36,200 bases of DNA from Candidatus Methanoperedens nitratireducens (GTDB lineage: Archaea; Halobacteriota; Methanosarcinia; Methanosarcinales; Methanoperedenaceae): assembly GCF_000685155.1 (NCBI RefSeq), contig NZ_JMIY01000003.1, positions 69,047-105,246 on the forward strand. The letters run 5' to 3'. The position numbers and the translations under genes are program-made. A model generated the notes under the pieces. That model was not told the DNA's origin, ran no database searches, and was given only the letters and a program-made list of their open reading frames with translations. This document shows positions 2,090-23,500 of this stretch, piece by piece. How positions within the stretch are numbered: the first letter of the stretch is position 1; every line of letters starts with the position of its first letter.

Positions 2090-2650
2090 TTGGATAACAA
2101 ATCAACATCAGTAAGACTATTATTTACCAGGATAGGTGGAGTTATTGGGATACTGTTACTCATATCTGCCCTGGGTGGATGTATTGACGGTGAAAGTAAG
2201 CTGGGTGCAGAGTCTCCTGATCAGAATATTACCCTGACAGGTAATGAAAATGAGATGGGCGCAGAACTTCCTGCAGGGAATATCAGTGTGAATAGCCTGA
2301 CTAAGACAAAATCTGCATCCAACAAATCAGAACCAAACCAGATACGTTTAATTCTAAATCAAAAGCAGTTCCAGAAGACTGGCAAGCTCCCGGTCACGGT
2401 AAAGATCATTAATCCCGGTATGAACGAGACAGTGCTTACAGCGTTCAGGCCAGAGTTCGGTTCTGAGTGGTATAACAAGGCCAGGGTGACTCGCATCAAC
2501 AACGGTAGCTGGACCAAGAGCTTCTCCATAAAACCGAAAGGGAATACCAGTTATGTCCACATATTTGTCCAGGTTTCTAAGAATAATACTGTGGTAAAGA
2601 GGGCTGCATGGAATGTTACATTTAATACGCCCATCGGCGGGCCGAACTGA
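2090..2650 (+). CDS. Secreted lipoprotein, first gene of module A
   Basis: A 186-residue protein with a lipoprotein-type leader: an uncharged stretch IGGVIGILLLISA followed by lipobox-like LGGC at about residues 28-31, then an Asn/Ser/Glu-rich linker. The C-terminal ~100 residues look like one beta-sandwich domain with several N-glycosylation sequons. The start is TTG 2090, preceded by GTGGGG about 9 nt upstream; no in-frame ATG gives the leader. It is paralogous to the gene at 10512-11090, sharing PVTVKIINP-type and VVKRAxWNxTF strands and the tail TPxGxPN. It heads module A, 79 bp before the acidic repeat protein. Function is unknown; probably cell-surface anchored. Confidence 0.7.
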   Translation: MDNKSTSVRLLFTRIGGVIGILLLISALGGCIDGESKLGAESPDQNITLTGNENEMGAELPAGNISVNSLTKTKSASNKSEPNQIRLILNQKQFQKTGKLPVTVKIINPGMNETVLTAFRPEFGSEWYNKARVTRINNGSWTKSFSIKPKGNTSYVHIFVQVSKNNTVVKRAAWNVTFNTPIGGPN

Positions 2651-2698
2651 CCGGGTTCAAGTCCCGGGGGCGCATTTGGCCCGGCAAGAGCGCCGGGC
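2651..2698 (+). other. tRNA T-arm-like hairpin plus GC-rich hairpin after the lipoprotein gene
   Basis: Directly after the stop codon, CCGGGTTCAAGTCCCGG forms a 5-bp stem with the 7-nt loop TTCAAGT, as in a tRNA T-arm, and is followed by GGGCGCA, resembling a tRNA 3' acceptor strand. A second stem, GCCCGGC/GCCGGGC (2679-2685 with 2692-2698), follows. The T-arm-like part recurs after the paralogous gene at 11091-11114. No complete tRNA can be folded. It could be an attachment-site remnant or an RNA element of the module. Confidence 0.6.
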
Positions 2699-2729
2699 AC
2701 AATAGAATAAAAAGAAACGAGGTGAATAA

Positions 2730-4898
2730 ATGAAGAAAGCACTGACACTAATACTTATAGTGTCGATAGCTATAGGACTGATACTTCCAGCAGCAGCTCA
2801 ACCTACGGCTGAAGCAGATTCTGATTTAGCAGGAACTGCTGACTCTGCAGCCACGGGAGAGGCTGACTCGGAGGGCACAGGGACTACTGACTCTGCAGCC
2901 ACGGGAACTGCTGACTCGGAAGGCACAGGAACTGCTGAGTCTGATGTAGCAGGTACTACTGAGTCTGATGTAGCAGGAACTGCTGATGCAACAGGCACAG
3001 GAACTACCGACTCTGAAGCCGCAGGGACAACAGATTCTGATGTAGCAGGTACTACTGAGTCTGATGTCGCGGGGACAGCAGATTCAACAGGTACAGGGAC
3101 TACTGAAGCCGATGTCACAGGAGAAGCTGACTCAACAGGCACAGGGACTACTGAAGCCGATGTCACAGGAGAAGCTGACTCAACAGGCACAGGGACTACT
3201 GACGCTGAATCAACAGGGGCAGCCGACGCAGTGGGCACAGGAACTACTGACGCTGATGTTACAGGTACCGCTGAGTCTGAAGCCCTGGGGACAACAGACG
3301 CTGATGCAGCAGGGGGAACCTCCTCTACTGACATCGCTGTAGACATGGATGGAGAAAACATAGCCACCAACTCTGTAACCCAGAGCCAAAGAACTGGCGA
3401 TCAGGAAAATTCTGCAAGGGGATCGGCAGTAGGCGGTAACGCGGTAGCAGGCTCAAGCGTAGACTCAAAGACAGATGCAACGACAGAATCGGATATAGAC
3501 TATGACGTTGTGGGTGGCGACGGCGGCGAAGGACTTGGCGGCGAAAGCGGCGACAGTGTAGCTACTGGTGAAGGCACCGGTACCGGCACAGGCGAAGCCG
3601 AGAGCGTTGGCGGAGAAGCTGACAGCGTTGGCACTGCAACTGGCGAAGGCGAGAGCGTTGCAACTGGCGAAGGCGACAGTGAAGGCCTTGGCGGCGAGGG
3701 AAGCAGCGTTGCTGAAGGCACTGGCGAAGGCGTGAGCGAAGCCACGAGCGGCGAGAGCCTTGGCGGTGAAGGCGGCGAAGCCCGCAGTGACAGCGATGAG
3801 TTCGGCGATGCTGATAGCGAAGCTGGTGAAGGCGGAGAGAGCGAGAGCGGCGAAGCTGAGAGTGATGCTGAAGGCCGCGGTGATGTCGATAGCGTTGGCG
3901 AAGGCGGCGAAGCAGAGAGCGATAGCGAGATCGATGTCGAAAGCGATGCCACCGGTGAAGGCGATGCAAGCAGCGATGCCACAGGCGGCGACGCTGACAG
4001 CGTTGGTGAAGGCCGTGGCGAAGGCGATGGAGCAAGCGACAGCAGAAGCGGTGACGGCGGCGAAGGTCTTGGCGGCGAAAGCACAACAGACGGCAGCGTA
4101 GATGCCAATGTTGAAACCAATGGCGGAGATTCAGAGGTAGACTCTCAAGCTCAGGCCGATGGCGGAGATCCTAAGGGATTCGACGGCGATGTCACGCAGG
4201 TAAATGCCAATGTGCAGACCGCATGGGCACAGATCGACAATGATCAGAGACTTGACCAGACAGCAAACGTAGACTACTATGGAGACGCTAGCGGCGGAGA
4301 TATAGATGCAGAATCAAATCCGATATCTGAAGCATCCAGTGATCCATCCGTTGATGCAGCCTCAGATGCAACATCTGAAGCAACCAGTGATCCATCAACC
4401 GATGCAGTAACAGACACAGCCTCAGACGCAACATCAGATACAGAATCAGATGCACAGACAGACACAGCCTCAGACGCAACATCAGATACAGAATCAGATG
4501 CAGCAACAGACACAGCCTCAGACGCAACCACAGATGCAACAGGTGATGCACAGACAGACACAGCCTCAGATATAACCAAAGATATATCCTCAGATGCAGA
4601 CACAGATACAACATCAGATGCAACCGCAGATACAGAATCAGATGCAGCAACAGATGCAACAGGTGATTCAGAGACAGACGTAACCTCAGATGCAGCAGGT
4701 GATGCAGAATCAGATGCAGAGACAGATGTAACCTCAGATGCAGCAGGTGATGCAACCTCAGATGCAGCCACAGATACAGACTCAGAAGCAACCGCAGACG
4801 CAACAGAAGAGACAGACATAGAGACAACAGAGGAAACAACAGAGGAGACAACAGAGATAACAGACATAAGAGAGGAGACAACGGACATAAGAAGGTAA
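2730..4898 (+). CDS. Giant acidic low-complexity secreted repeat protein (module A)
   Basis: A 722-residue protein with a signal peptide (MKKALTLILIVSIAIGLILP, cleavage near AAA-QP). Residues ~25-200 are Thr/Ala/Gly/Asp/Ser repeats of the GTADSxGTG type. Residues ~200-260 form a first core (DMDGENIATNSVTQSQ, GDQENSA). Residues ~260-455 are Gly/Glu/Ser/Asp repeats. Residues ~485-520 form a second core (GDVTQVNANVQTAW, DQRLDQTANV). The last ~200 residues are TASDATSDTESDA-type repeats. The two cores match the 244-residue module B paralogue at 11169, so this is the same protein enlarged by low-complexity insertions. It is very acidic, has no Cys, and lacks an obvious C-terminal anchor. ATG 2730 follows the ribosome binding site GAGGTGA. 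It probably forms or coats an extracellular structure, possibly binding divalent cations; this is inference. Confidence 0.75.
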   Translation: MKKALTLILIVSIAIGLILPAAAQPTAEADSDLAGTADSAATGEADSEGTGTTDSAATGTADSEGTGTAESDVAGTTESDVAGTADATGTGTTDSEAAGTTDSDVAGTTESDVAGTADSTGTGTTEADVTGEADSTGTGTTEADVTGEADSTGTGTTDAESTGAADAVGTGTTDADVTGTAESEALGTTDADAAGGTSSTDIAVDMDGENIATNSVTQSQRTGDQENSARGSAVGGNAVAGSSVDSKTDATTESDIDYDVVGGDGGEGLGGESGDSVATGEGTGTGTGEAESVGGEADSVGTATGEGESVATGEGDSEGLGGEGSSVAEGTGEGVSEATSGESLGGEGGEARSDSDEFGDADSEAGEGGESESGEAESDAEGRGDVDSVGEGGEAESDSEIDVESDATGEGDASSDATGGDADSVGEGRGEGDGASDSRSGDGGEGLGGESTTDGSVDANVETNGGDSEVDSQAQADGGDPKGFDGDVTQVNANVQTAWAQIDNDQRLDQTANVDYYGDASGGDIDAESNPISEASSDPSVDAASDATSEATSDPSTDAVTDTASDATSDTESDAQTDTASDATSDTESDAATDTASDATTDATGDAQTDTASDITKDISSDADTDTTSDATADTESDAATDATGDSETDVTSDAAGDAESDAETDVTSDAAGDATSDAATDTDSEATADATEETDIETTEETTEETTEITDIREETTDIRR

Positions 4899-5432: not shown

Positions 5433-6365
5433 ATGGTGAAATGGGTCTGGCTATTTGCAGGTCTGTTGGTCATGGGTATGGCGGCTGCTGAGGAAGATAT
5501 GAGTTCTGCCCAGCTTGCTCAACTGGCTGTGGATATGATGGGGGACTCAGGCCAGGACGCACAGATCTCAGGCTTTGGAATTGCCAATTCAAGCCAGATA
5601 GGTTATTCATCAGATGGCAACGTTACCCAGACGATCTTTTATGATAATATCGAGAATGGAAGTGTTATTCAGTGGGGCGAATCTGGAGATATGCCCCGTG
5701 AGGAGAGGACTATGTTTATAGATAGTGTGAGAGATCCAGGCCTAACATGGCAGTGGAACAAGGGCAATGTGAACCAGACGATCAATATTACAAACTCCGA
5801 GAACCTGTATCTAAGGCAGATCATGGGGGGATTAAGGAAAATCCTTTTCCCTGATCCAGATAAAGAGATAGGCAGAGACTGGTGGTTCTGCGGTAAGGCG
5901 GTAAACGGTACAGGTGGCCTGCCTCTGTGCGCTGAAAAAATAGCAAAGAGGATATTCGAAGGAAAAGCCACTCCGCGGGATTATTATATGCTGCATGTTC
6001 TTGAGGAAGATTACTATGTTTTCCCTCCTGAGAATCTTACGCCCCGTATAATACTGACAAAGTGGAGTATAACTAGAGCTGGTGATAACCTCACTATAAA
6101 GTTCAGGGCACATAACTTTGGTAAGGAGACTTACAATGCAACCCTTATGATGGACATTATCCCGAAGATTGATATAGAAGGTTTTGATGGAAAGACTTTC
6201 AGGGCAGAAGATGCGCAGAATTGGGAGATTAAGGTGCCTGATAAGAAGGTCATTGAGATCGGGAGGTACACGGTTCCCAGCATGAAGGAGATTGAGGGAG
6301 AAGTAGTAGTACCTCTTGATGGTATGAAAGTAAAGAACATGAAAATGAAGATGATGAGTGGATAA
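5433..6365 (+). CDS. Secreted protein with Gln/Asn-repeat N-half and Cys-pair motif (module A)
   Basis: A 310-residue protein with a signal peptide (about residues 1-20, cleaved near AAAEE). Residues ~45-130 hold the module's beta-repeat motif: SSQIGYSSDGNVTQTI, GSVIQWGESGDM, LTWQWNKGNVNQTINI and LYLRQI. A conserved segment with two Cys (FCGKA...GLPLCAEKIAKRIF, about residues 150-175) follows, and the C-terminal third looks like a CARDB-type beta-sandwich (LTIKFRAHNFGKETYNATL). ATG 5433 follows AAGGAGT. It is paralogous to 12418-13398 with clear similarity throughout. The beginning of the next gene overlaps its 3' end in reading-frame terms, and I place that gene's start downstream at 6385. 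Function is unknown; likely an accessory or base component of the extracellular assembly. Confidence 0.7.
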   Translation: MVKWVWLFAGLLVMGMAAAEEDMSSAQLAQLAVDMMGDSGQDAQISGFGIANSSQIGYSSDGNVTQTIFYDNIENGSVIQWGESGDMPREERTMFIDSVRDPGLTWQWNKGNVNQTINITNSENLYLRQIMGGLRKILFPDPDKEIGRDWWFCGKAVNGTGGLPLCAEKIAKRIFEGKATPRDYYMLHVLEEDYYVFPPENLTPRIILTKWSITRAGDNLTIKFRAHNFGKETYNATLMMDIIPKIDIEGFDGKTFRAEDAQNWEIKVPDKKVIEIGRYTVPSMKEIEGEVVVPLDGMKVKNMKMKMMSG

Positions 6366-6384
6366 CTGCTTGAATGGGGGAGAA

Positions 6385-9300
6385 ATGGATCTTAAAAAAA
6401 TAATAATCGGACTCACTGTTCTCTTAATCCTTTTTTTAATTCCTTTTTTAGGAGCAAGTGCCTCTAATGGTTATAGTGTGAGTGGCTATGTATCCGATAA
6501 TTATGGTCTTGGCCTGGAGGGTGTTCTGGTAAAGAACGGCTCCTATAGTGATACCACCTCAGCGGATGGCTACTATGTGATAAATGGTCTGCCTGAGGGT
6601 ACTTATAGATTCAGGTATTCCAGGTCCGGATTCAATACTGGCTATTTAGAAGTTACAATTAGAGATAAAGATCATAAAAATGCGAATATAACAATCTACG
6701 ATACTACACCTCCTGGCAGTATCAGGGAGCTGGTGAGCGATACTCCAGCCCGGACAACGGTTAATCTTAGCTGGAATCCAGTAAGAGATAGCGACCATTA
6801 TCTGGTATTCAGAAACTCCACCAGCATCGGGTCTACCAGGAATAGCTACTGGAATGATACTGGATTAACTCCGGATACCCCGTATCGATATTTTGTAAGG
6901 GCGATAGATTCTTATAATAATTCAGGTCGGAGATCCCCAACATTAAGTATTAGAACGGCTCCGGATACTACTTCACCTGATCTGGTATCCAGTTCAGACA
7001 CTACTTCACCTGATTTAGAGTCCAGTTCAGACACTACTTCGCCTGATTTAGTATCCAGCCCAGATACCACTTCTCCTGATTTAGAGTCCAGCCCAGATAC
7101 TACTTCTCCTGATTTAGAGTCCAGCCCAGATACTACTTCGCCTGCTTCTGTATCCAATCCCCGGACAACAACCGGCAACTTCTATATAAACAACACCTGG
7201 ACAAACCCTGAAGATACGTATCTCAGCCATATATGGTTCAGATATAAGAGTGGTGGTACACTGCAAAATGTTAGCGCACCTGTTAATTATCTTAATCTTA
7301 CCTGGCGACCGCATTATAAACAGAATATCAGCGCTCAAACTGTAGATATATATGGGAATGTTAACCCGACAAAAGTCTGGTTCAACACTACTATACCCAA
7401 TAACCCTATTAGAATAACCAACACATCGGATTGGTCGGGCAAAGAAGGACAGACTGTGTATATAGATTTTGATTACGAGGATGCAGATGACGATACAGGC
7501 ATATTTACAACCAGCGCAACAAAAGGCACACTGGATAAGTGGACAGGAGTTTTCAAATGGACAACACAGAAGGGCGATGAGGGTACATATTACTGGGTAT
7601 TCAGAGTACGGGATAGGTATGAGTCGGTCTCAGAATACCCAGCAACCATAACAGTCGAAGGAGATAATGCAACAGAGAACAATACGATATGGGACAATAC
7701 GACAGGGGACAATGTGACAGGAGATGATACGACATTTAAGCCAGGGGAGGCCAAGAAGCCTGAGAATTTACAGAACACGACAGGCAATTTCTGGGTAAGT
7801 TACACATGGGAAAAAGGAGCGAATACGGATTCGTTTAACGTTAGTTTCAATGATAGATGGAGTAACGGAAGTTCGAAAACATTTACCAATCATACGGTAG
7901 GCCCGCATGGCTGGGGAAATATTACAGTTTATGGATGGAACAGTACTTTTAATGTCTTAGGCCAGGGTGTATCCCAGGATACCCAGGTCCCTAACAATCC
8001 TCCCAACCAATCTATCATAGGGGATAAGGTGGTATACACAGGTCAGACACTGGATTTGCGCATAAATACAACCGATGCAGATTCAGATCCTATAACCTAC
8101 GGAACCAATGCAACAAAGGGTAGCCTTAATAGCAGTACGGGGATCTACAATTGGACCACGGATGAGAGCGATACAGGGGTGTATATATGGGAATTCAACA
8201 GCAGTGACGGTTACGGCGGGGTAGCCAGCGAAACCATAAATGTAACAGTTAATAATCCTCTTGATATTGATCTTAAATTTATCGAGCCGTATGTAATTAA
8301 TCATAATGAAACATGGGTAAAGACATGGCGTGATGCAGAGGTAGGCCATGCAGGCAAATTTATTGGAATCGACGGCACCTTTAATAATACAGGGAATGAT
8401 TCGCTTGTTCTTACGGTAACTGAAATCCATGGTAACGAATCAAGGGGACCCTTTACATCAATACTGGAAAAGAACGAGTCCAAGTCCTATATGCAGGCCT
8501 TCGGAAAACCGGCATTTCCAATAAATTCAACTGAGATTAAAGATGGGTTCTTTAATTTTACCATAATAGTAAATATTAGAGGTCAGCAGAATGGTACCTG
8601 GACATCTAACTACACTAATACCACCTCCATTTCGCTTCCGATAATCCCCATTCTCAAGATAAAACAAGCAAATACGGATACGATCGTGGTCAGTGAAGGC
8701 AGGACTACCACTGTTACTTATACACTTGAAGCCAGCAGTGACATCAATTTAACAAATGTTTCTATTTATGATCCGCTTTATCCAGAGAACCAGGGGTACT
8801 TTAATGTCTCAAAACTTGAGGCCAACATACCCAGTAATATAAGCTATTCTTATCCTGCTACAACCAGCGATTTATCTAAATTTAAATGCGAAGGGTCGTA
8901 CTCATGTATTATAAATCTGGCAACATTCACAGGTGAAACTGAATCCGGTGTCCAGATCAATGATACTGATTATATAGAGTTATATGTATGTAAGGACACA
9001 GATACAAACTGCTTCTCATCTGGCACTGGCGGTGAAAGCGGTGGAAGCGGTGGTAATAGCGGGAACAGCGGTGGAGGAAGCAGTGGCGTAGGAAGCAGCG
9101 GTGGAGGAGGCAGCAGTGGTGGTGGCGGCGGTGGTGGCGGCGGTGGAACGCAGCCCAGTGAGGACTTCAATAACATGGAACGAAGAGAGGTAAGGGAAAT
9201 GGACATAACCGCCGGATCATCACCAGCATATGTCTTCAGTACGGCAGATCCTGTTATGGTGGTAGCATTTGAGAGCAGTGTGAGCCAGAACGAAGTGCCA

Positions 9301-9825
9301 GTCGCTATTGAGGTACTGAGGAACAGATCAAAACACATAGGGGTTGATGCCCCGGGCAAACTCTATAATTACTTCAATATCTTTGTTGGTATGAGCGGTT
9401 TTAGCAAGAAGGTGAGTAAAGGTGTTGTGGCTTACCGTGTCAGCAACACCTGGCTTGAGGAGAATGACCTGAATCCTAAGGATATAAGCCTGTATAAATG
9501 GGAGGGGAAATGGGTGAAAAAGAATACTGAGATCGTTGAGAGCAAGCAAAATTATACCTATTATGCAGGTCTGGTCGGGAACTTCAGCAGTTTTGCCATA
9601 TCCGGTATTAAAAAACAGGAGGTAACTATACAGGATGTAACTTCTGGATCTATGCCAGAGATCTCCGTGCCTTCAGATGAATCAACAGAGGACACTACAC
9701 AAACATCAGATGATTCTGACCTCCCGGATTCCAGACCGACTAGAAGAAACCTGCAGCTATCAGTAATCCTGGTCGTTATTTTTGGGATATTAGGAATAAT
9801 CTATTACCTTAAAATGCTGCGTTAA
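6385..9825 (+). CDS. Large multidomain surface protein with PGF-pre-PGF domain (module A)
   Basis: A 1146-residue cell-surface protein counted from ATG 6385, preferred over GTG 6358 because GGGGGAG lies just upstream. Order: signal peptide (~1-25); carboxypeptidase regulatory-like domain (~26-103); FN3-like domain (~105-192); six 11-residue DTTSPDLxSSx repeats (194-259); two cadherin/Ig-like domains (~340-420, ~540-622); a long beta-rich stalk (~625-865); a poly-Gly/Ser linker (~875-925); a PGF-pre-PGF domain (~928-1075, starting SEDFNNMERREVREMD); a Ser/Thr/Asp spacer; and one membrane helix (VILVVIFGILGIIYYL) ending KMLR. It has many Asn-glycosylation sequons. There is no PGF-CTERM tripeptide, so a plain membrane anchor replaces archaeosortase processing. 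The C-terminal half is strongly similar to 13450-15906. Probably the anchor or adhesin of the module. Confidence 0.8.
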   Translation: MDLKKIIIGLTVLLILFLIPFLGASASNGYSVSGYVSDNYGLGLEGVLVKNGSYSDTTSADGYYVINGLPEGTYRFRYSRSGFNTGYLEVTIRDKDHKNANITIYDTTPPGSIRELVSDTPARTTVNLSWNPVRDSDHYLVFRNSTSIGSTRNSYWNDTGLTPDTPYRYFVRAIDSYNNSGRRSPTLSIRTAPDTTSPDLVSSSDTTSPDLESSSDTTSPDLVSSPDTTSPDLESSPDTTSPDLESSPDTTSPASVSNPRTTTGNFYINNTWTNPEDTYLSHIWFRYKSGGTLQNVSAPVNYLNLTWRPHYKQNISAQTVDIYGNVNPTKVWFNTTIPNNPIRITNTSDWSGKEGQTVYIDFDYEDADDDTGIFTTSATKGTLDKWTGVFKWTTQKGDEGTYYWVFRVRDRYESVSEYPATITVEGDNATENNTIWDNTTGDNVTGDDTTFKPGEAKKPENLQNTTGNFWVSYTWEKGANTDSFNVSFNDRWSNGSSKTFTNHTVGPHGWGNITVYGWNSTFNVLGQGVSQDTQVPNNPPNQSIIGDKVVYTGQTLDLRINTTDADSDPITYGTNATKGSLNSSTGIYNWTTDESDTGVYIWEFNSSDGYGGVASETINVTVNNPLDIDLKFIEPYVINHNETWVKTWRDAEVGHAGKFIGIDGTFNNTGNDSLVLTVTEIHGNESRGPFTSILEKNESKSYMQAFGKPAFPINSTEIKDGFFNFTIIVNIRGQQNGTWTSNYTNTTSISLPIIPILKIKQANTDTIVVSEGRTTTVTYTLEASSDINLTNVSIYDPLYPENQGYFNVSKLEANIPSNISYSYPATTSDLSKFKCEGSYSCIINLATFTGETESGVQINDTDYIELYVCKDTDTNCFSSGTGGESGGSGGNSGNSGGGSSGVGSSGGGGSSGGGGGGGGGGTQPSEDFNNMERREVREMDITAGSSPAYVFSTADPVMVVAFESSVSQNEVPVAIEVLRNRSKHIGVDAPGKLYNYFNIFVGMSGFSKKVSKGVVAYRVSNTWLEENDLNPKDISLYKWEGKWVKKNTEIVESKQNYTYYAGLVGNFSSFAISGIKKQEVTIQDVTSGSMPEISVPSDESTEDTTQTSDDSDLPDSRPTRRNLQLSVILVVIFGILGIIYYLKMLR
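6964..7161 (+). repeat. Six 33-bp repeats encoding DTTSPDLxSSx
   Basis: In-frame units begin at 6964, 6997, 7030, 7063, 7096 and 7129. Most differences are at codon third positions (cct/ccg), with the Val/Glu and Ser/Pro alternations also seen. The unit forms a rigid Thr/Ser/Pro linker between the FN3-like and Ig-like regions. The paralogue at 13450 lacks it. Confidence 0.85.
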
Positions 9826-10511: not shown

Positions 10512-11090
10512 TTGTATGACAGATCAACTCTGGTGGGATTAACATCTGTCCCCGTATCCTGTAGAATCCTGGCAATATTGATTCTCGTACTGGCGTCCGG
10601 GGGATGCACAGATCTGGAAGGTAAGCCTGGAAATGAGCTTACAGATAAGAATCTTAAAGACGGTAATCTTACGGATAGGAATCTCCCTGATCAGAATATA
10701 AGCGATAACAATATGGCTCTGGCGCTGGCTTCCTCCAGTATAAGCGAGCCAGAGATAGACAGGGCAAACCTGTCAAACCAGATACTTCTGATTCTCAGGA
10801 ACAAGGAATTCAATAGAACCGGCAGTCTGCCGATTACGTTAAAGATCATAAATCCGAGACTGAATGAAACCGTACTTACGGTATTCAAGCCTGATCTGGG
10901 GCAGGAGTGGTACAATCAGACCAGTATAACGTACATCGCTGATGGTAACTGGACTCAGAATTTCTCCCTGATGCCAAAGGGAAACGTCAGTTATGTCAGG
11001 ATGCTCGTACAGGTCTCTGAGAACGATACTGTGGTAAAGAGGGCTGTATGGAACATTACCTTTGATACGCCGGTCGGCAGGCCGAACTGA
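10512..11090 (+). CDS. Secreted lipoprotein, first gene of module B
   Basis: A 192-residue paralogue of the gene at 2090. The leader CRILAILILVLASGGC ends in a lipobox-like SGGC. An Asn/Asp-rich linker with DKNLKDGNLTDRNLPDQN-type degenerate heptads follows, then the same single beta-sandwich domain (LPITLKIINP, VQVSENDTVVKRAVWNITF) and the tail TPVGRPN. The start is TTG 10512 with GGAGGGTGG just upstream; GTG at codon 8 is an alternative. Nucleotide similarity to the module A copy rises sharply at the 3' end and continues past the stop codon. Function is unknown. Confidence 0.7.
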   Translation: MYDRSTLVGLTSVPVSCRILAILILVLASGGCTDLEGKPGNELTDKNLKDGNLTDRNLPDQNISDNNMALALASSSISEPEIDRANLSNQILLILRNKEFNRTGSLPITLKIINPRLNETVLTVFKPDLGQEWYNQTSITYIADGNWTQNFSLMPKGNVSYVRMLVQVSENDTVVKRAVWNITFDTPVGRPN

Positions 11091-11114
11091 TCGGGTTCAA
11101 ATCCCGGGGGCGCA
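11091..11114 (+). other. tRNA T-arm-like hairpin after the module B lipoprotein gene
   Basis: TCGGGTTCAAATCCCGG folds as a 5-bp stem with a TTCAAAT loop and is followed by GGGCGCA. It matches the copy at 2651-2674 with two substitutions, both of which preserve the fold (C to T gives T-G pairing; G to A lies in the loop). The downstream GC-rich hairpin of copy A is replaced by a weaker TGCC/GGCA stem (11117-11142). Confidence 0.6.
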
Positions 11115-11168
11115 GTTGCCTGGTTAAAATAACAGCCTGGCAGAAGAATAAAACATGAGGTGTAAAAT

Positions 11169-11903
11169 ATGAAGAAAATATTTGTACTGTTACTGTTGGT
11201 ATCAACAGTAATAGGGATGGCTGTCCCTGCGATGGCTAATCCAACGAATTGGAAGGAAATCAAAATAGATATAGATGGCTACAATTTTGCCACCAGCAAT
11301 ACAGAGCAAAAACTGGTCAATGAAGGTGACCTGACAAACTCGGTGGTTGGTCTTGGCGCAGGTGGTGATGCAGCAGCGTTATCTACTGCATGGAACGATA
11401 ATGATGCAAAGGCAGTTTCGGACGCAACGACTAGCGGCCATGCAAAGAGCGGTGATGCTACCAATAAGTGCCCGGCCACTGCTAAGGCTGACGATGCTGT
11501 AGCAGAGACTAATGATAATGATAGCGTCGCTGTCGCGGTTAATATTCCCATAGGTGTTGCTGTCTGCGACGCTGATAGCGGGGATGCAAACAACTTCGGT
11601 GAAGCATTTTCAGAATCCTTCAACGATAATGATGCCAGAGCGAACTCTGCGGCCAATGCCTTTGGTGGAAGTGGTGAGGGATTCTTCGTCAGTGGTGACC
11701 TCACACAGGTAAACGCTGTTGTTCAGCTTGCCTTTGCAAACACTGATATCGACCAGAAACTTGTTCAGACTGTCAAGATAAAAGAGTTCCAGAAGATCGA
11801 TATCGATGACACCTCATTTGTTGAGGGCAACAAACTTGAGGACGGAATCATAGTCTCAGCAGGCGACGACGCAGTCGACGATAAGAACAAGCTCTCGACT
11901 TAA
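11169..11903 (+). CDS. Secreted acidic beta-repeat protein (module B)
   Basis: A 244-residue protein with a signal peptide (MKKIFVLLLLVSTVIGMAVPA, cleaved near AMA-NP). The mature chain begins KIDIDGYNFATSNTEQKLVNEGDLTNS. It continues through Gly/Ala/Asp-rich turns (AWNDNDAKAVSDA, ESFNDNDARANSAANAFG) and closes with SGDLTQVNAVVQLAFANTDIDQKLVQTV. The first and last blocks are homologous to the two cores of the 722-residue module A protein, so this is the compact form without the large repeats. Two Cys lie in the middle. Asp/Asn/Gly-rich periodicity suggests a beta-solenoid or calcium-stabilised fold, but I know no named family. ATG 11169 follows GAGGTG. Probable major structural component. Confidence 0.7.
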   Translation: MKKIFVLLLLVSTVIGMAVPAMANPTNWKEIKIDIDGYNFATSNTEQKLVNEGDLTNSVVGLGAGGDAAALSTAWNDNDAKAVSDATTSGHAKSGDATNKCPATAKADDAVAETNDNDSVAVAVNIPIGVAVCDADSGDANNFGEAFSESFNDNDARANSAANAFGGSGEGFFVSGDLTQVNAVVQLAFANTDIDQKLVQTVKIKEFQKIDIDDTSFVEGNKLEDGIIVSAGDDAVDDKNKLST

Positions 11904-13449: not shown

Positions 13450-15906
13450 ATGCGTAATAAAAAAAAGATCCTTATCATACTTCTGATCTCTTCAATCTCT
13501 TTATTTTCTTCAGGGGCAAGAGCCGATGCTCCAGTACTGGAACCCATAGGCAATAAGACCGTGAACGAAGGAGAACTCCTGGAGTTCACCATCAATGCTA
13601 CAGGTGAGAACCTGACGTATTCTGCAGGCAATTTACCAGCAGGGGCAAGCTTTGACCCTGATACTCATGTTTTTACCTGGACGTCGGATTTTACCCAGGC
13701 TGGGACATACCGGGTTAATTTTACGGTATCTGATCCTGGTGATCTTGTGGACAGCGAGGATATTACCATTACTGTAAATAATGTGAACCGTGCTCCCTCA
13801 TCTCCAGCAAGAATAGCTCCTGTAAACTGGCAGAATCTATCGGATGGAAACATCAGGCTTACCTGGAAGAACAGTACTGATGCAGATGGAGATAATCTTA
13901 CCTACGACTGGCAGTTAAGCAATCAGGCAGGTTTTCCCAATATTCTCAGATCTGGAAATACTGCTGATCTCTTCTCAGATCTATCTTTATCTCCAGGCAC
14001 ATATTACTGGAGGGTGAGGGCTAACGATTCCCTGGCCCTATCGAACTGGAGTAATCGATCAAAAACACCTGATTTCCAGATAGTATCAGCCCCGAATATA
14101 GATAACGTTAAGGCATTCATAATAACTAACAGCACCATAAAGGTAGAGTGGACGACAGACCAAAGCTATAGCTCAAACAGGGTACTGTACGGCTATCATC
14201 CGGACCTGGAGGATGGTAACTGGAGTTCCTGGAATAATAATACTGATAATCCCGCTATCGTAATAGATGGGTTAACAGGTCAGTCAATATATTATCAGGT
14301 GTTCAGCTTCAACGCCAGCAACTCCTCGGCGTATAGCAATTCCAGTATTAGTAATATCTTTTACCCTCTTGAGCTTGATATAAGATTCATTGAGCCGACT
14401 ATGATAGATGATGCTGGAACGTGGGTTGAGACGTGGGTTGATGCCAGGGTTGGCCACACAGGAAAATTCATAGGGTATAGCAGTACCTTTAAGAATATGG
14501 GTGCGGACTCGCTGGTTCTTACAGTGACAGAGATCTATAATAATAGATCCCACTATGATCAATCTTTTAAAGTAACTTTATCAAAAAATGAGTCTAAGTT
14601 CTGCCAGGATAACGTCACAGGATGCAGATTAGCATTTTACATAGAGCCTGATGGAGTCAATTATATACAGAGTAAAGAGGGATTTTTCAATCTCACCCTT
14701 AAAATAGACGTTACAGGCAAGAGTGGTTCATGGGCATTTAACTACACCAATATCACTACAATCTCGCTTCCAGTACTTCCCATTTTCAGAATAAAACAGG
14801 CCAGCGGAGGTGCAGCGGTAGTTATTGAGGGGCGTACAACATCCATTATCTATACCCTTGAAGCCAACAGTACTGTCAATCTGACAAATGTTTCAATCTA
14901 TGATCCTATATACTCACTGGTCTCGGGAAGAGAGAGCTATTTTATTGAGAAACTTGAGGCAAATAAACCTCAGAGCATAAGCTATACCTATCCTGTTACG
15001 ATACATGACTTATCTAAATTTAAGTGTGAAGAGACCGAAAGAGGGTACCCATGTATTATAAATATAGCAAACTTCTCAGGCACAACCGAATCCGGGGATA
15101 TGATTTATGATACTGATTACGTGAAGATCTGTGCGAATAAGTGCTACGAAGGCACTGTTCCCAGTAATGAAGGTAGCGGCTCAAGCGCAAGAGGAGGTAG
15201 CAGCAGCGGTGGAATACCGCCCAGTGAGGACTTCAATAACATGGAGCGAAGAGAGGTAAGGGAGATGGATATACTTGCCAGATCATTATCAGCTTATGTC
15301 TTCCGTAGTGCTGATCCTGTTATGGTGGTGAGTTTTGAGAGCAGCATGAGCGAGAACGAAGTGCAGGTCGCTGTTGAGGTGCTTAAGAACAGGTCGAAAA
15401 ACATAGGGGTTGATGCTCCGGGCAAATTGTATAAATACTTCAATATCTTCGCCGGCATGGGCGGCTTTAGCAGGAAGATAAGCAATGGAGTTGTGGTTTA
15501 TCGTATCAACAACACCTGGCTTGAGGAGAATGACCTCGATCCTAAGGATATAGGCCTGTATAAATGGGAGGGGAAATGGGTGAAAAAGAATACTGAGATT
15601 GTTGAGAGCAAGCAAGACCATACCTATTATGCCAGCCTGGTCGGGAACTTCAGCAGTTTTGCCATAGCAGGGGTTAAAAAACAAGAGGTAGCCTCTGGAT
15701 CTCCACAAAATATCTCCATGCCTTCAGATGAATCGGCAAATAACACAAGCCAGATGTCAGTAGATTTAAATCTCTCAAGTGTTGAGCCGCCTGGTAATGC
15801 TTTAAAGCTGCCTGCGGCTTTTATCTTAATTATTGGAATTATTGTTGCGATTATTTATCTTAAAATGAACCATAATAAATCAAATGAGAATGGAGGGAGA
15901 AAATGA
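13450..15906 (+). CDS. Multidomain surface protein with PGF-pre-PGF domain (module B)
   Basis: An 818-residue protein: signal peptide (~1-25); putative Ig domain of the He_PIG/cadherin type (~28-112, LEPIGNKTVNEGELLEFTIN); two FN3-like domains (~115-300); a beta-rich stalk (~303-570) shared with the module A protein; a short Gly/Ser linker; a PGF-pre-PGF domain (~598-745) that is largely identical in residues to module A; and a membrane helix (FILIIGIIVAIIYL) ending in a basic Asn/Lys tail. It differs from the module A protein in its N-terminal domains and lacks the Thr/Pro repeats, which indicates domain swapping on a conserved anchor. There is no PGF-CTERM motif. Its stop overlaps the next gene by 4 bp (ATGA), so they are co-translated. 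Confidence 0.8.
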   Translation: MRNKKKILIILLISSISLFSSGARADAPVLEPIGNKTVNEGELLEFTINATGENLTYSAGNLPAGASFDPDTHVFTWTSDFTQAGTYRVNFTVSDPGDLVDSEDITITVNNVNRAPSSPARIAPVNWQNLSDGNIRLTWKNSTDADGDNLTYDWQLSNQAGFPNILRSGNTADLFSDLSLSPGTYYWRVRANDSLALSNWSNRSKTPDFQIVSAPNIDNVKAFIITNSTIKVEWTTDQSYSSNRVLYGYHPDLEDGNWSSWNNNTDNPAIVIDGLTGQSIYYQVFSFNASNSSAYSNSSISNIFYPLELDIRFIEPTMIDDAGTWVETWVDARVGHTGKFIGYSSTFKNMGADSLVLTVTEIYNNRSHYDQSFKVTLSKNESKFCQDNVTGCRLAFYIEPDGVNYIQSKEGFFNLTLKIDVTGKSGSWAFNYTNITTISLPVLPIFRIKQASGGAAVVIEGRTTSIIYTLEANSTVNLTNVSIYDPIYSLVSGRESYFIEKLEANKPQSISYTYPVTIHDLSKFKCEETERGYPCIINIANFSGTTESGDMIYDTDYVKICANKCYEGTVPSNEGSGSSARGGSSSGGIPPSEDFNNMERREVREMDILARSLSAYVFRSADPVMVVSFESSMSENEVQVAVEVLKNRSKNIGVDAPGKLYKYFNIFAGMGGFSRKISNGVVVYRINNTWLEENDLDPKDIGLYKWEGKWVKKNTEIVESKQDHTYYASLVGNFSSFAIAGVKKQEVASGSPQNISMPSDESANNTSQMSVDLNLSSVEPPGNALKLPAAFILIIGIIVAIIYLKMNHNKSNENGGRK

Positions 15907-22435: not shown

Positions 22436-22510
22436 GGGGTTGTAGGGTAGCCTGGTCCATCCTATGGCGTTCGGGACGCCGTGACCTGAGTTCAAATCTC
22501 AGCAACCCCA
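22436..22510 (+). tRNA. tRNA-Pro (CGG)
   Basis: A 75-nt cloverleaf. Acceptor GGGGTTG pairs with CAACCCC, with discriminator A. The D-arm is GGGT...ATCC. The anticodon stem TGGCG/CGCCG holds loop TTCGGGA, anticodon CGG. The T-arm is CTGAG-TTCAAAT-CTCAG. CCA is not encoded and there is no intron. It lies directly between rpoN and rpoK. Confidence 0.92.
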
Positions 22511-22542
22511 TACCCTGGGACACGGCATGGAACATGAACCAC

Positions 22543-22582
22543 TCTCAGAGGGACTCTGAGAAAAAATTAGTATATATAAATA
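22543..22582 (+). promoter_or_regulatory. Hairpin after tRNA-Pro and promoter of the rpoK-S2-MEMO genes
   Basis: TCTCAGAG-GGA-CTCTGAGA (22543-22561) is a perfect 8-bp hairpin ending the upstream unit, followed by A-rich rather than T-rich sequence. AGTATATATAAATA (22569-22582) is a strong archaeal TATA box about 45-55 bp before the rpoK start. Confidence 0.6.
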
Positions 22583-22624
22583 AAATTTATTCAACTCTTG
22601 GATACTTGTTTTTGAGGTGATTAG

Positions 22625-22861
22625 GTGACTGAAACCAATTTTACACGGTATGAGCGTGCGAGGATTATCGGTGCAAGGGCGCTTCAGATATCTATGGGAG
22701 CCCCTGTGCTGATAGAAACAGATAAAAAAGAACCCATAGATATTGCACTGGCTGAGCTGGAGAAAGAAGTAATCCCTATTACTGTGAAAAGAACAGTGGA
22801 GCAAGAAAAGGGAGTAGTCCCTACTCTGGAAACACATCTTACCCTGGCAGAAGAAGAATAA
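22625..22861 (+). CDS. rpoK: DNA-directed RNA polymerase subunit K
   Basis: A 78-residue subunit (Rpb6/omega homologue). Signature [25 protein letters not shown], and [20 protein letters not shown]. The start is GTG 22625, preceded by GAGGTGA at 22613-22619; no suitable ATG exists. The tail of ~20 extra acidic residues ([18 protein letters not shown]) extends past the usual core. S2 follows with no enolase gene between. Confidence 0.93.
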
Positions 22862-22873
22862 AAGGTGATTGAA

Positions 22874-23500
22874 ATGGAAAATATCGTTGATATTAAACAG
22901 GATGTAAAACAGGATACTGGTTATGAATCGATTATTCCGCAGGATGAATATCTGACTGCAGGAATTCACATTGGTACACAGCAAAAAACAAAAGAAATGA
23001 TGCGTTTTGTATATCGCGTGAGGACTGATGGCCTGTATGTTCTTGATATACAGGCTACTGACCAGCGTATACGGCTTGCTGCAAAAATGCTCGCAAAATA
23101 CGACCCGGGCAGGATACTTGTGGTATCTGCCAGGCAGTACGGCCATTATCCTTCAAGGATGTTTGCAAAAGCAATCGGTGCAAGAGCGATAACAGGTAGA
23201 TTTATTCCCGGTACTTTAACTAACCCGAAGCTGCATATGTATGTAGAACCTGATATCCTGGTAGTAACAGATCCTGCCGGGGATGTTCAGGCTGTAAATG
23301 AAGCGGTCAATGTCGGGGTACCGGTTATAGGCCTGTGTGATACCAATAACTCGATATCTAATGTTGATCTTGTAATTCCCACAAATAATAAAGGAAGAAA
23401 GGCCCTGGCATTAATCTACTGGCTCCTTGCAAAGAAGGTGCTTGAGGAGAGAGGAGATACTATTAATTACACAGTAGCTGATTTCGAGGCTGAGATATAA
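22874..23500 (+). CDS. rps2: 30S ribosomal protein S2
   Basis: A 208-residue archaeal S2. Seen: [60 protein letters not shown], and [23 protein letters not shown] 22874 is chosen because GGTG at 22864-22867 is then well placed as ribosome binding site; GTG 22865 lies within it. MEMO starts 7 bp downstream. Confidence 0.95.

Follow-up and report, generated by a model that had tools for sequence, protein, structure and literature searches.

A repeated T-arm-like sequence in Candidatus Methanoperedens belongs to a conserved tRNA-like RNA element ahead of exported-protein genes

Why should a sequence resembling the T-arm of a tRNA stand immediately behind two lipoprotein-like genes of an archaeon? 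The locus lies in a 36,200-nucleotide stretch (hereafter the window; G000:C3:69047-105246) of the 3.2 Mb genome of Candidatus Methanoperedens nitratireducens (G000). As originally noted, CCGGGTTCAAGTCCCGG followed by GGGCGCA occupies positions 2651-2674 (copy A) and recurs at 11091-11114 as TCGGGTTCAAATCCCGG followed by GGGCGCA (copy B); the copies are 8440 bases apart, in agreement with the direct-repeat spacing of about 8.4 kb first given. A search of the window with the pattern CGGGTTCAARTCCCGGGGGCGCA, allowing up to three mismatches, returned exactly two matches against 0.00 expected from shuffled sequences, and the repetition is real rather than a product of chance. In register, the identity between the copies is 68% over 2334-2590 (the gene body), 87.5% over 2591-2678, 92% over 2651-2674 and 38% over 2679-2720, directly after the element, which bears out the claim that similarity is high over the final ~60 coding bases and the ~25 bases beyond the stop, and then falls. 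Both differences within the 24 bases preserve the fold, as had also been predicted: from A to B, a C-to-T change at the edge of the T-stem turns a C-G pair into U-G, and a G-to-A change lies in the loop, at T-loop position 59.

The surroundings consist of two duplicated cassettes, each with the order lipoprotein, signal-peptide protein, two small ORFs and a large cell-surface protein with a PGF-pre-PGF domain. The original prediction that the two copies bracket a module (A) fails, since each copy sits between the first and second genes of one cassette, its T-arm-like hairpin abutting the TGA with which a lipoprotein-like gene ends. Lipoprotein gene A matched no Pfam or NCBIfam family; homologs are found in eight genomes of the genus, and among named records its relatives belong to Candidatus Methanoperedens and to an uncultured archaeon. 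The paralogous large surface proteins (6358-9825 and 13450-15906) carry the PGF-pre-PGF domain TIGR04213. The products of the second genes differ strongly in length (722 residues for protein A, 244 for its counterpart in the second cassette), and the gene for protein A (2730-4898) is made up almost wholly of 24-nt and 12-nt DNA repeats, its product being rich in T, S, D and A. Upstream of the first cassette, at 1856-1930, a 24-27 nt repeat occurs three times head to tail with CATATG palindromes (ATGCACTCCCATATGTCTTGTCATATG); these are possibly operator sites.

Individual folds of many copies, together with their alignment, identify the repeated sequence as the 3' half of a folded tRNA-like RNA of ~50 nt, with the architecture of the acceptor/T-arm half of a tRNA, accompanied by one further hairpin (Table 1). 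The conserved structure is larger than the segment first described, extending in copy A from the 5' strand of P1 at 2626 to the end of P4 at 2698. P1 is an acceptor-like stem of 6-7 bp, stacked directly on the T-arm, with its 5' strand in the last codons of the lipoprotein gene; position 1-72 is often mismatched, leaving P1 with 6 bp in most copies, one below a normal acceptor stem. P2, a mini-hairpin of 12 nt with 3-5 bp, replaces the D and anticodon arms and is missing from two copies. P3 is a 5-bp T-arm with a TTCRANY loop and no gap to the 3' strand of P1; copies d and e have a 6-nt T-loop. The element ends in an unpaired discriminator-like A, followed in most copies by U, as in the tRNA genes of G000, and never by CC. 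P4, a separate stable hairpin, lies 2-5 nt downstream of this end, after a short U-rich linker. Most P2 loops carry a GG toward the 3' side, perhaps in imitation of the D-loop GG with which the T-loop of a tRNA interacts; we offer this as a suggestion only, because copies G007b, G010 and e lack it. In loci L024, L025 and L033 (copies G009b, G005b and G007b) the P4 loop has grown to ~80-90 nt through repeated CAGTCCCTGCGGC-type units, with the stem retained. P4 does not qualify as an intrinsic terminator, being followed by an A-rich leader and a Shine-Dalgarno (SD) site with no U run.

Table 1. Positions of the features discussed (window coordinates unless a locus is named).
Feature	Position	Strand	Remarks
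Lipoprotein-like gene A	2090-2650	+	186 aa, TTG start, GGC lipobox; contributes the 5' half of the element through its last codons
P1 5' strand, copy A, acceptor-like TACGCCC	2626-2632	+	Inside coding sequence; from covariance-model alignment, with compensatory partners
P2 mini-hairpin, copy A, TCGG CGGG CCGA	2634-2645	+	Stands where the D and anticodon arms would be
P3 T-arm-like hairpin, copy A, CCGGG TTCAAGT CCCGG	2651-2667	+	Abuts TGA stop (2648-2650)
P1 3' strand, copy A, GGGCGC, and discriminator-like A	2668-2674	+	
P4 hairpin, copy A, GCCCGGC AAGAGC GCCGGGC	2679-2698	+	
Shine-Dalgarno-like GAGGTG, copy A	2719-2724	+	Read directly; belongs to the downstream gene
Signal-peptide, low-complexity repeat protein A	2730-4898	+	722 aa; leader carries the element
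Lipoprotein-like gene B	10512-11090	+	192 aa
P1 5' strand, copy B, TACGCCG	11066-11072	+	Weaker pairing: A-C and G-G mismatches
P2 mini-hairpin, copy B, TCGG CAGG CCGA	11074-11085	+	
P3 T-arm-like hairpin, copy B, TCGGG TTCAAAT CCCGG	11091-11107	+	
P1 3' strand, copy B, GGGCGC, and discriminator-like A	11108-11114	+	
P4 hairpin, copy B, TTGCC-T-GGTT ... AGCC-T-GGCAG	11116-11143	+	
Shine-Dalgarno-like GAGGTG, copy B	11157-11162	+	Read directly
Signal-peptide protein B, downstream of the element	11169-11903	+	244 aa
Methanosarcinaceae copies	L077 9174-9233, L078 8090-8149 (oriented); also G117, G118, G131		Between two small genes

The folding energy of single copies was not below that of shuffled sequence (z of -0.1 to -0.8), and copies c and d, folded alone, adopt an alternative minimum-energy structure. 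As single-copy free energy carried no signal, covariation was used as evidence instead. In a MAFFT alignment of 15 copies made without reference to structure (alignment A2), the T-stem is 98.7% and P1 86.7% paired, and five pairs have changed on both sides. The covariation score was 0.215, compared with 0.136 for shuffled alignments (0 of 500 reached it) and at most 0.129 when the structure was slid along the alignment; all 500 shuffles were beaten on the number of cells paired, the number of cells with a double change and the covariation score. P4 covaries as well, its first six pairs being formed in 17-18 of 18 copies. The T-stem occurs as CCGGG/CCCGG and CUGGG/CCCAG, and P1 as ACGCC/GGCGU, GCGCC/GGCGC, GUGCC/GGCAC and GUACC/GGUAC, with AUGCGU/GCGCAU in copy e. 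By parsimony, counted by hand on the lipoprotein protein tree, the C-G to U-A swap in the T-stem arose at least three times (in G009a, in the G009b/G005b pair and in G010, the tree placement of the last being weak) and P1 underwent at least three swaps (C-G to U-A twice and G-C to A-U once, in G008). G-U and U-G pairs are common, where the opposite strand would have A-C, indicating that the folded strand is the sense-strand RNA and not DNA. That base pairs are kept by compensating mutations in P1, P3 and P4 means that the cell probably uses the structure, and we are highly confident that the element is real, structured and under selection.

Part of this conservation falls within a reading frame, which raises the question of whether it could be explained without any RNA, by conservation of a C-terminal peptide (TP-V/I-G) together with reading through the stop. 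The high similarity does cover the last codons, and in copies A and B the frame continues open for some distance beyond the stop. However, a lipoprotein frame is missing from copies c, d and e, the window copies and G000c are not in the same frame across the junction, changes in the T-loop obey TTCRANY rather than synonymous positions, and a change on the coding strand of P1 in G008 (GTA for ACG) is matched on the non-coding strand. In G010 the lipoprotein stop codon is lost and the frame reads through the element with the fold intact. The copies without a lipoprotein frame and G010 led us to reject a coding or read-through origin, and coding constraint as the sole explanation is very improbable. 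A fold that overlaps the last codons of the lipoprotein and is kept after loss of the stop is an unusual constraint of RNA structure on the end of a protein.

Pattern, protein and covariance-model searches found 19 copies in eight of 31 Candidatus Methanoperedens genomes, and the lipoprotein and the strong element matches occur in the same eight. Thirteen copies, distributed over all eight genomes, follow a lipoprotein gene, while six (copies c, d and e of G000 and G024) do not; all 19 precede a gene for a signal-peptide, mostly low-complexity protein. The region upstream of copies d and e has no similarity to the lipoprotein, copy c retains only its last codons, and copy e keeps the element with a wholly different P1. 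Of the two readings offered by the original prediction, that of a conserved RNA element is upheld by the covariation and by its occurrence in eight genomes, although not as a 3' element of the lipoprotein gene: a leader of the downstream gene fits better, because the six copies without a lipoprotein gene still directly precede an exported-protein gene. Where checked, the downstream gene opens with a signal peptide of MKKILVLLLLVSTVIGMAVPAMA type. It usually begins ~40-65 nt from the element (~125 nt where the P4 loop is long) and is preceded in most copies by a GAGGTG-type motif; the products are structural or unknown exported proteins and form no metabolic set. Copies c and e have a TATA-like box ~30 nt ahead of P1, so that transcription would be expected to start just ahead of the fold, giving a short leader like that of a pre-tRNA.

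Signal-peptide genes SP1 and SP4 of the C2 array (L073, oriented positions 4315 and 8361) lack a full element; ahead of SP4, ATGACCGGGTTCAAAATGCCGTG resembles a decayed copy. A weak candidate in G017 (L045, 24 bits; L079 ~6820-6882, G017:C49) lies at the stop of a ThiF-like gene, with the T-arm and a downstream hairpin present and P1 doubtful.

Outside the genus, five Methanosarcinaceae genomes, placed in that family from the order of the host and the kinship of the controls, match the Methanoperedens covariance model at 31 to 23 bits. These copies share the geometry, with P1 CUCCGG/CCGGAG, P2 GAC..GUC, a T-arm of UCGGG/CCCGA or CCGGG/CCCGG and a P4 (GCCUGCA/UGCAGGC) whose sequence is unlike that of Methanoperedens; MAFFT misplaces P1 between the two groups. 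Their surroundings are provirus-like: the region holds a gene for a large terminase (PHROG, E 2e-31) along with others that are primase-like or replication-like. The phage collection contained no relative of this region, and IMG/VR no relative of the lipoprotein. None of the eight IMG/VR matches to the pattern is a full element, five overlapping an ARAGORN tRNA and the other three matching the T-arm only. In a model search across the phylum (393 genomes), the matches beyond Methanoperedens and the provirus-like copies were tRNAs, mostly tRNA-Gly; the one exception, L090 in G344, is perhaps a tRNA with an intron.

The other reading originally offered was that the element is the remnant of an attachment site, or a tRNA pseudogene, carried by a mobile module. 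Its resemblance to a tRNA 3' end, the two copies in direct orientation 8.4 kb apart and the related copies in provirus-like regions of Methanosarcinaceae all speak for such an origin. Against it, none of the 44 tRNAs of G000 has this 3' end, the best match to the 3' part of the element being 18 of 24 nt. Three places in the G000 genome lie within three mismatches of the pattern, none of them a tRNA; the third departs from it only at degenerate positions of the T-loop (TTCGAGC). ARAGORN and the Rfam tRNA model are silent at the element copies, whereas they find the true tRNA-Pro at 22436-22510, and we rejected a tRNA gene or pseudogene, the tRNA models recognizing no cloverleaf with an anticodon arm. 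(The 3' end of this tRNA-Pro, with anticodon CGG, overlaps the end of a 215-residue ORF on the opposite strand, at 22499-23146.) Comparison of 4227 Rfam models with the window and 13 related loci gave only true tRNAs at gathering score. A Pfam scan of 30 window ORFs yielded no integrase or recombinase, and an integrase attachment site at a tRNA was likewise rejected, for want of both 3'-end identity among the 44 tRNAs and a neighbouring integrase among those ORFs. A relic would not be expected to show compensatory changes in several lineages. The copies in provirus-like regions are intergenic, close to the terminase and replication genes rather than at a host tRNA, and the Methanoperedens copies are always at one junction, before a signal-peptide gene. 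After searching G000 by pattern and by DNA similarity and comparing all its tRNAs, we consider an attachment-site or pseudogene remnant exceedingly improbable.

Among known features, the archaeal 't-element' comes closest: a mimic of tRNA that RNase P and tRNase Z cut. In Haloferax, t-elements are established substrates of both enzymes (PMC4326828, PMC4946936) and define where 5S rRNA begins (PMC4326828). We somewhat favour the proposal that the present feature is such an element, that is, an RNA-processing signal carried by the mRNA leaders of one exported-protein family in Candidatus Methanoperedens; the structure follows from the sequences, and that it is processed we infer. RNase P and then tRNase Z would recognize the minihelix of acceptor stem and T-arm and cut at its 5' and 3' borders, detaching the downstream message from what precedes it, either the lipoprotein cistron or a short 5' leader. 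The putative longer transcript would span co-directional genes, with the element at the stop codon and upstream of the SD site. The freed message would start with a few U-rich nucleotides followed by the P4 stem-loop, and this structured 5'-phosphate end, capped by P4, would protect it and set its level apart from that of the upstream gene. Since the RNase P cut would precede the lipoprotein stop, one transcript could serve either for the lipoprotein or for the processed exported-protein message, and wherever a lipoprotein gene is linked, each transcript would be subject to competition between processing and lipoprotein synthesis.

Several observations are consistent with processing. The acceptor-like stem is contiguous with the T-arm, as judged by covariation of P1 and P3 and by the compact variant in copy e. 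An RNase Z gene scores above the curated cut-off in seven of the eight carrier genomes, the exception being G010, which is 84% complete. The discriminator-like A is not followed by CC(A), which inhibits many tRNase Zs. This is a weak criterion, because methanogen RNase Zs tolerate CCA (PMC7479834). Methanogen RNase Zs, including one from Methanolobus psychrophilus of the same order, process pre-tRNAs without the D or anticodon arm and require the acceptor stem, and the Methanolobus enzyme in Mg2+ is slowed by loss of the T-arm (PMC7479834). The enzymes studied also depend on a mature 5' end (PMC7479834). RNase P would therefore have to cut before them, destroying the lipoprotein stop codon on that transcript, a point that counts against the proposal. 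So do the 6-bp P1 of most copies, the alternative folds of copies c and d, the 6-nt T-loop of d and e, and single-copy folding energies no lower than those of shuffled sequence.

A purely regulatory or ligand-binding role would fit the covariation equally well. The element might be a leader, riboswitch-like or protein-binding, in which the T-loop serves the tertiary fold; it would then govern how the downstream gene is translated or how stable its message is, with no cut by tRNA enzymes. Its structure is conserved, and it always stands ahead of an exported-protein gene, also in copies that have no upstream cistron and a TATA-like box; T-loops and tRNA-like folds also occur in riboswitches, as described for yjdF (PMC9142559). 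On the other hand, no Rfam family matches, GAGGTG is free downstream of P4 with no alternative pairing over it seen, the downstream genes encode structural or unknown exported proteins rather than a metabolic set, and an acceptor/T-arm geometry this exact is not easily accounted for unless some factor recognizes tRNA. On balance, we regard a cis-regulatory leader as rather doubtful. Less probable still is that the element acts only as a stabilizer: once another nuclease has cut, P1-P3 would guard the lipoprotein message at its 3' end, and P4 the following message at its 5' end. Strong stems do flank the U-rich linker, and P4 is conserved and covarying, but a plain hairpin needs neither a TTCRANY loop nor a direct acceptor/T-arm junction, both of which have been kept.

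If the processing signal is the correct reading, its nearest counterpart would be the 5S t-element of Haloferax volcanii, likewise a tRNA-like structure in a longer transcript of a euryarchaeon, just upstream of another RNA, where it serves RNase P and tRNase Z as a cutting site (PMC4326828, PMC4946936, PMC7714728). The Methanoperedens element differs in preceding protein genes, in partly overlapping coding sequence, in having a conserved P4 hairpin and in forming a multi-copy family, and its cleavage is predicted. In plant mitochondria, too, mRNA precursors contain tRNA-like t-elements, processing signals at which RNase P cuts (PMC4919922); they belong to another lineage, whereas the present elements have no cloverleaf and accompany a single gene family. 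The mascRNA and menRNA of MALAT1 and MEN-beta are tRNA-like structures in long RNAs, cut by RNase P and RNase Z (PMC4919922), but form the 3' ends of eukaryotic lncRNAs and overlap no coding sequence. Archaeal tRNA-Gly, to which most of the covariance model's tRNA matches belong, shares the GCGCC.. acceptor, the CCGGGTTCRA T-arm and A73 followed by U. In contrast, the element has no anticodon arm and a P1 of 6 bp whose sequence is free to change (ACGCC, GUGCC, GUACC, AUGCGU), and so keeps no glycine identity.

To our knowledge, mRNA processing in archaea is poorly known, and archaeal tRNA-like processing elements are documented mainly at 5S rRNA. The kind of element is known; its form here (multi-copy, overlapping coding sequence, P4-capped and found in host and provirus-like settings) is new as far as the literature shows. 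Tentatively, these elements may form a class of their own among the mRNA leaders of Methanosarcinales, mimicking tRNA and common to host exported-protein genes and provirus-like elements, in which the partly coding fold would make RNase P and tRNase Z choose between translation of the upstream cistron and release of a P4-capped downstream message. The family gives exact predicted cut sites that can be checked in existing metatranscriptomes. If the proposal is true, the enzymes of tRNA maturation would also shape mRNAs in methane-oxidising archaea.
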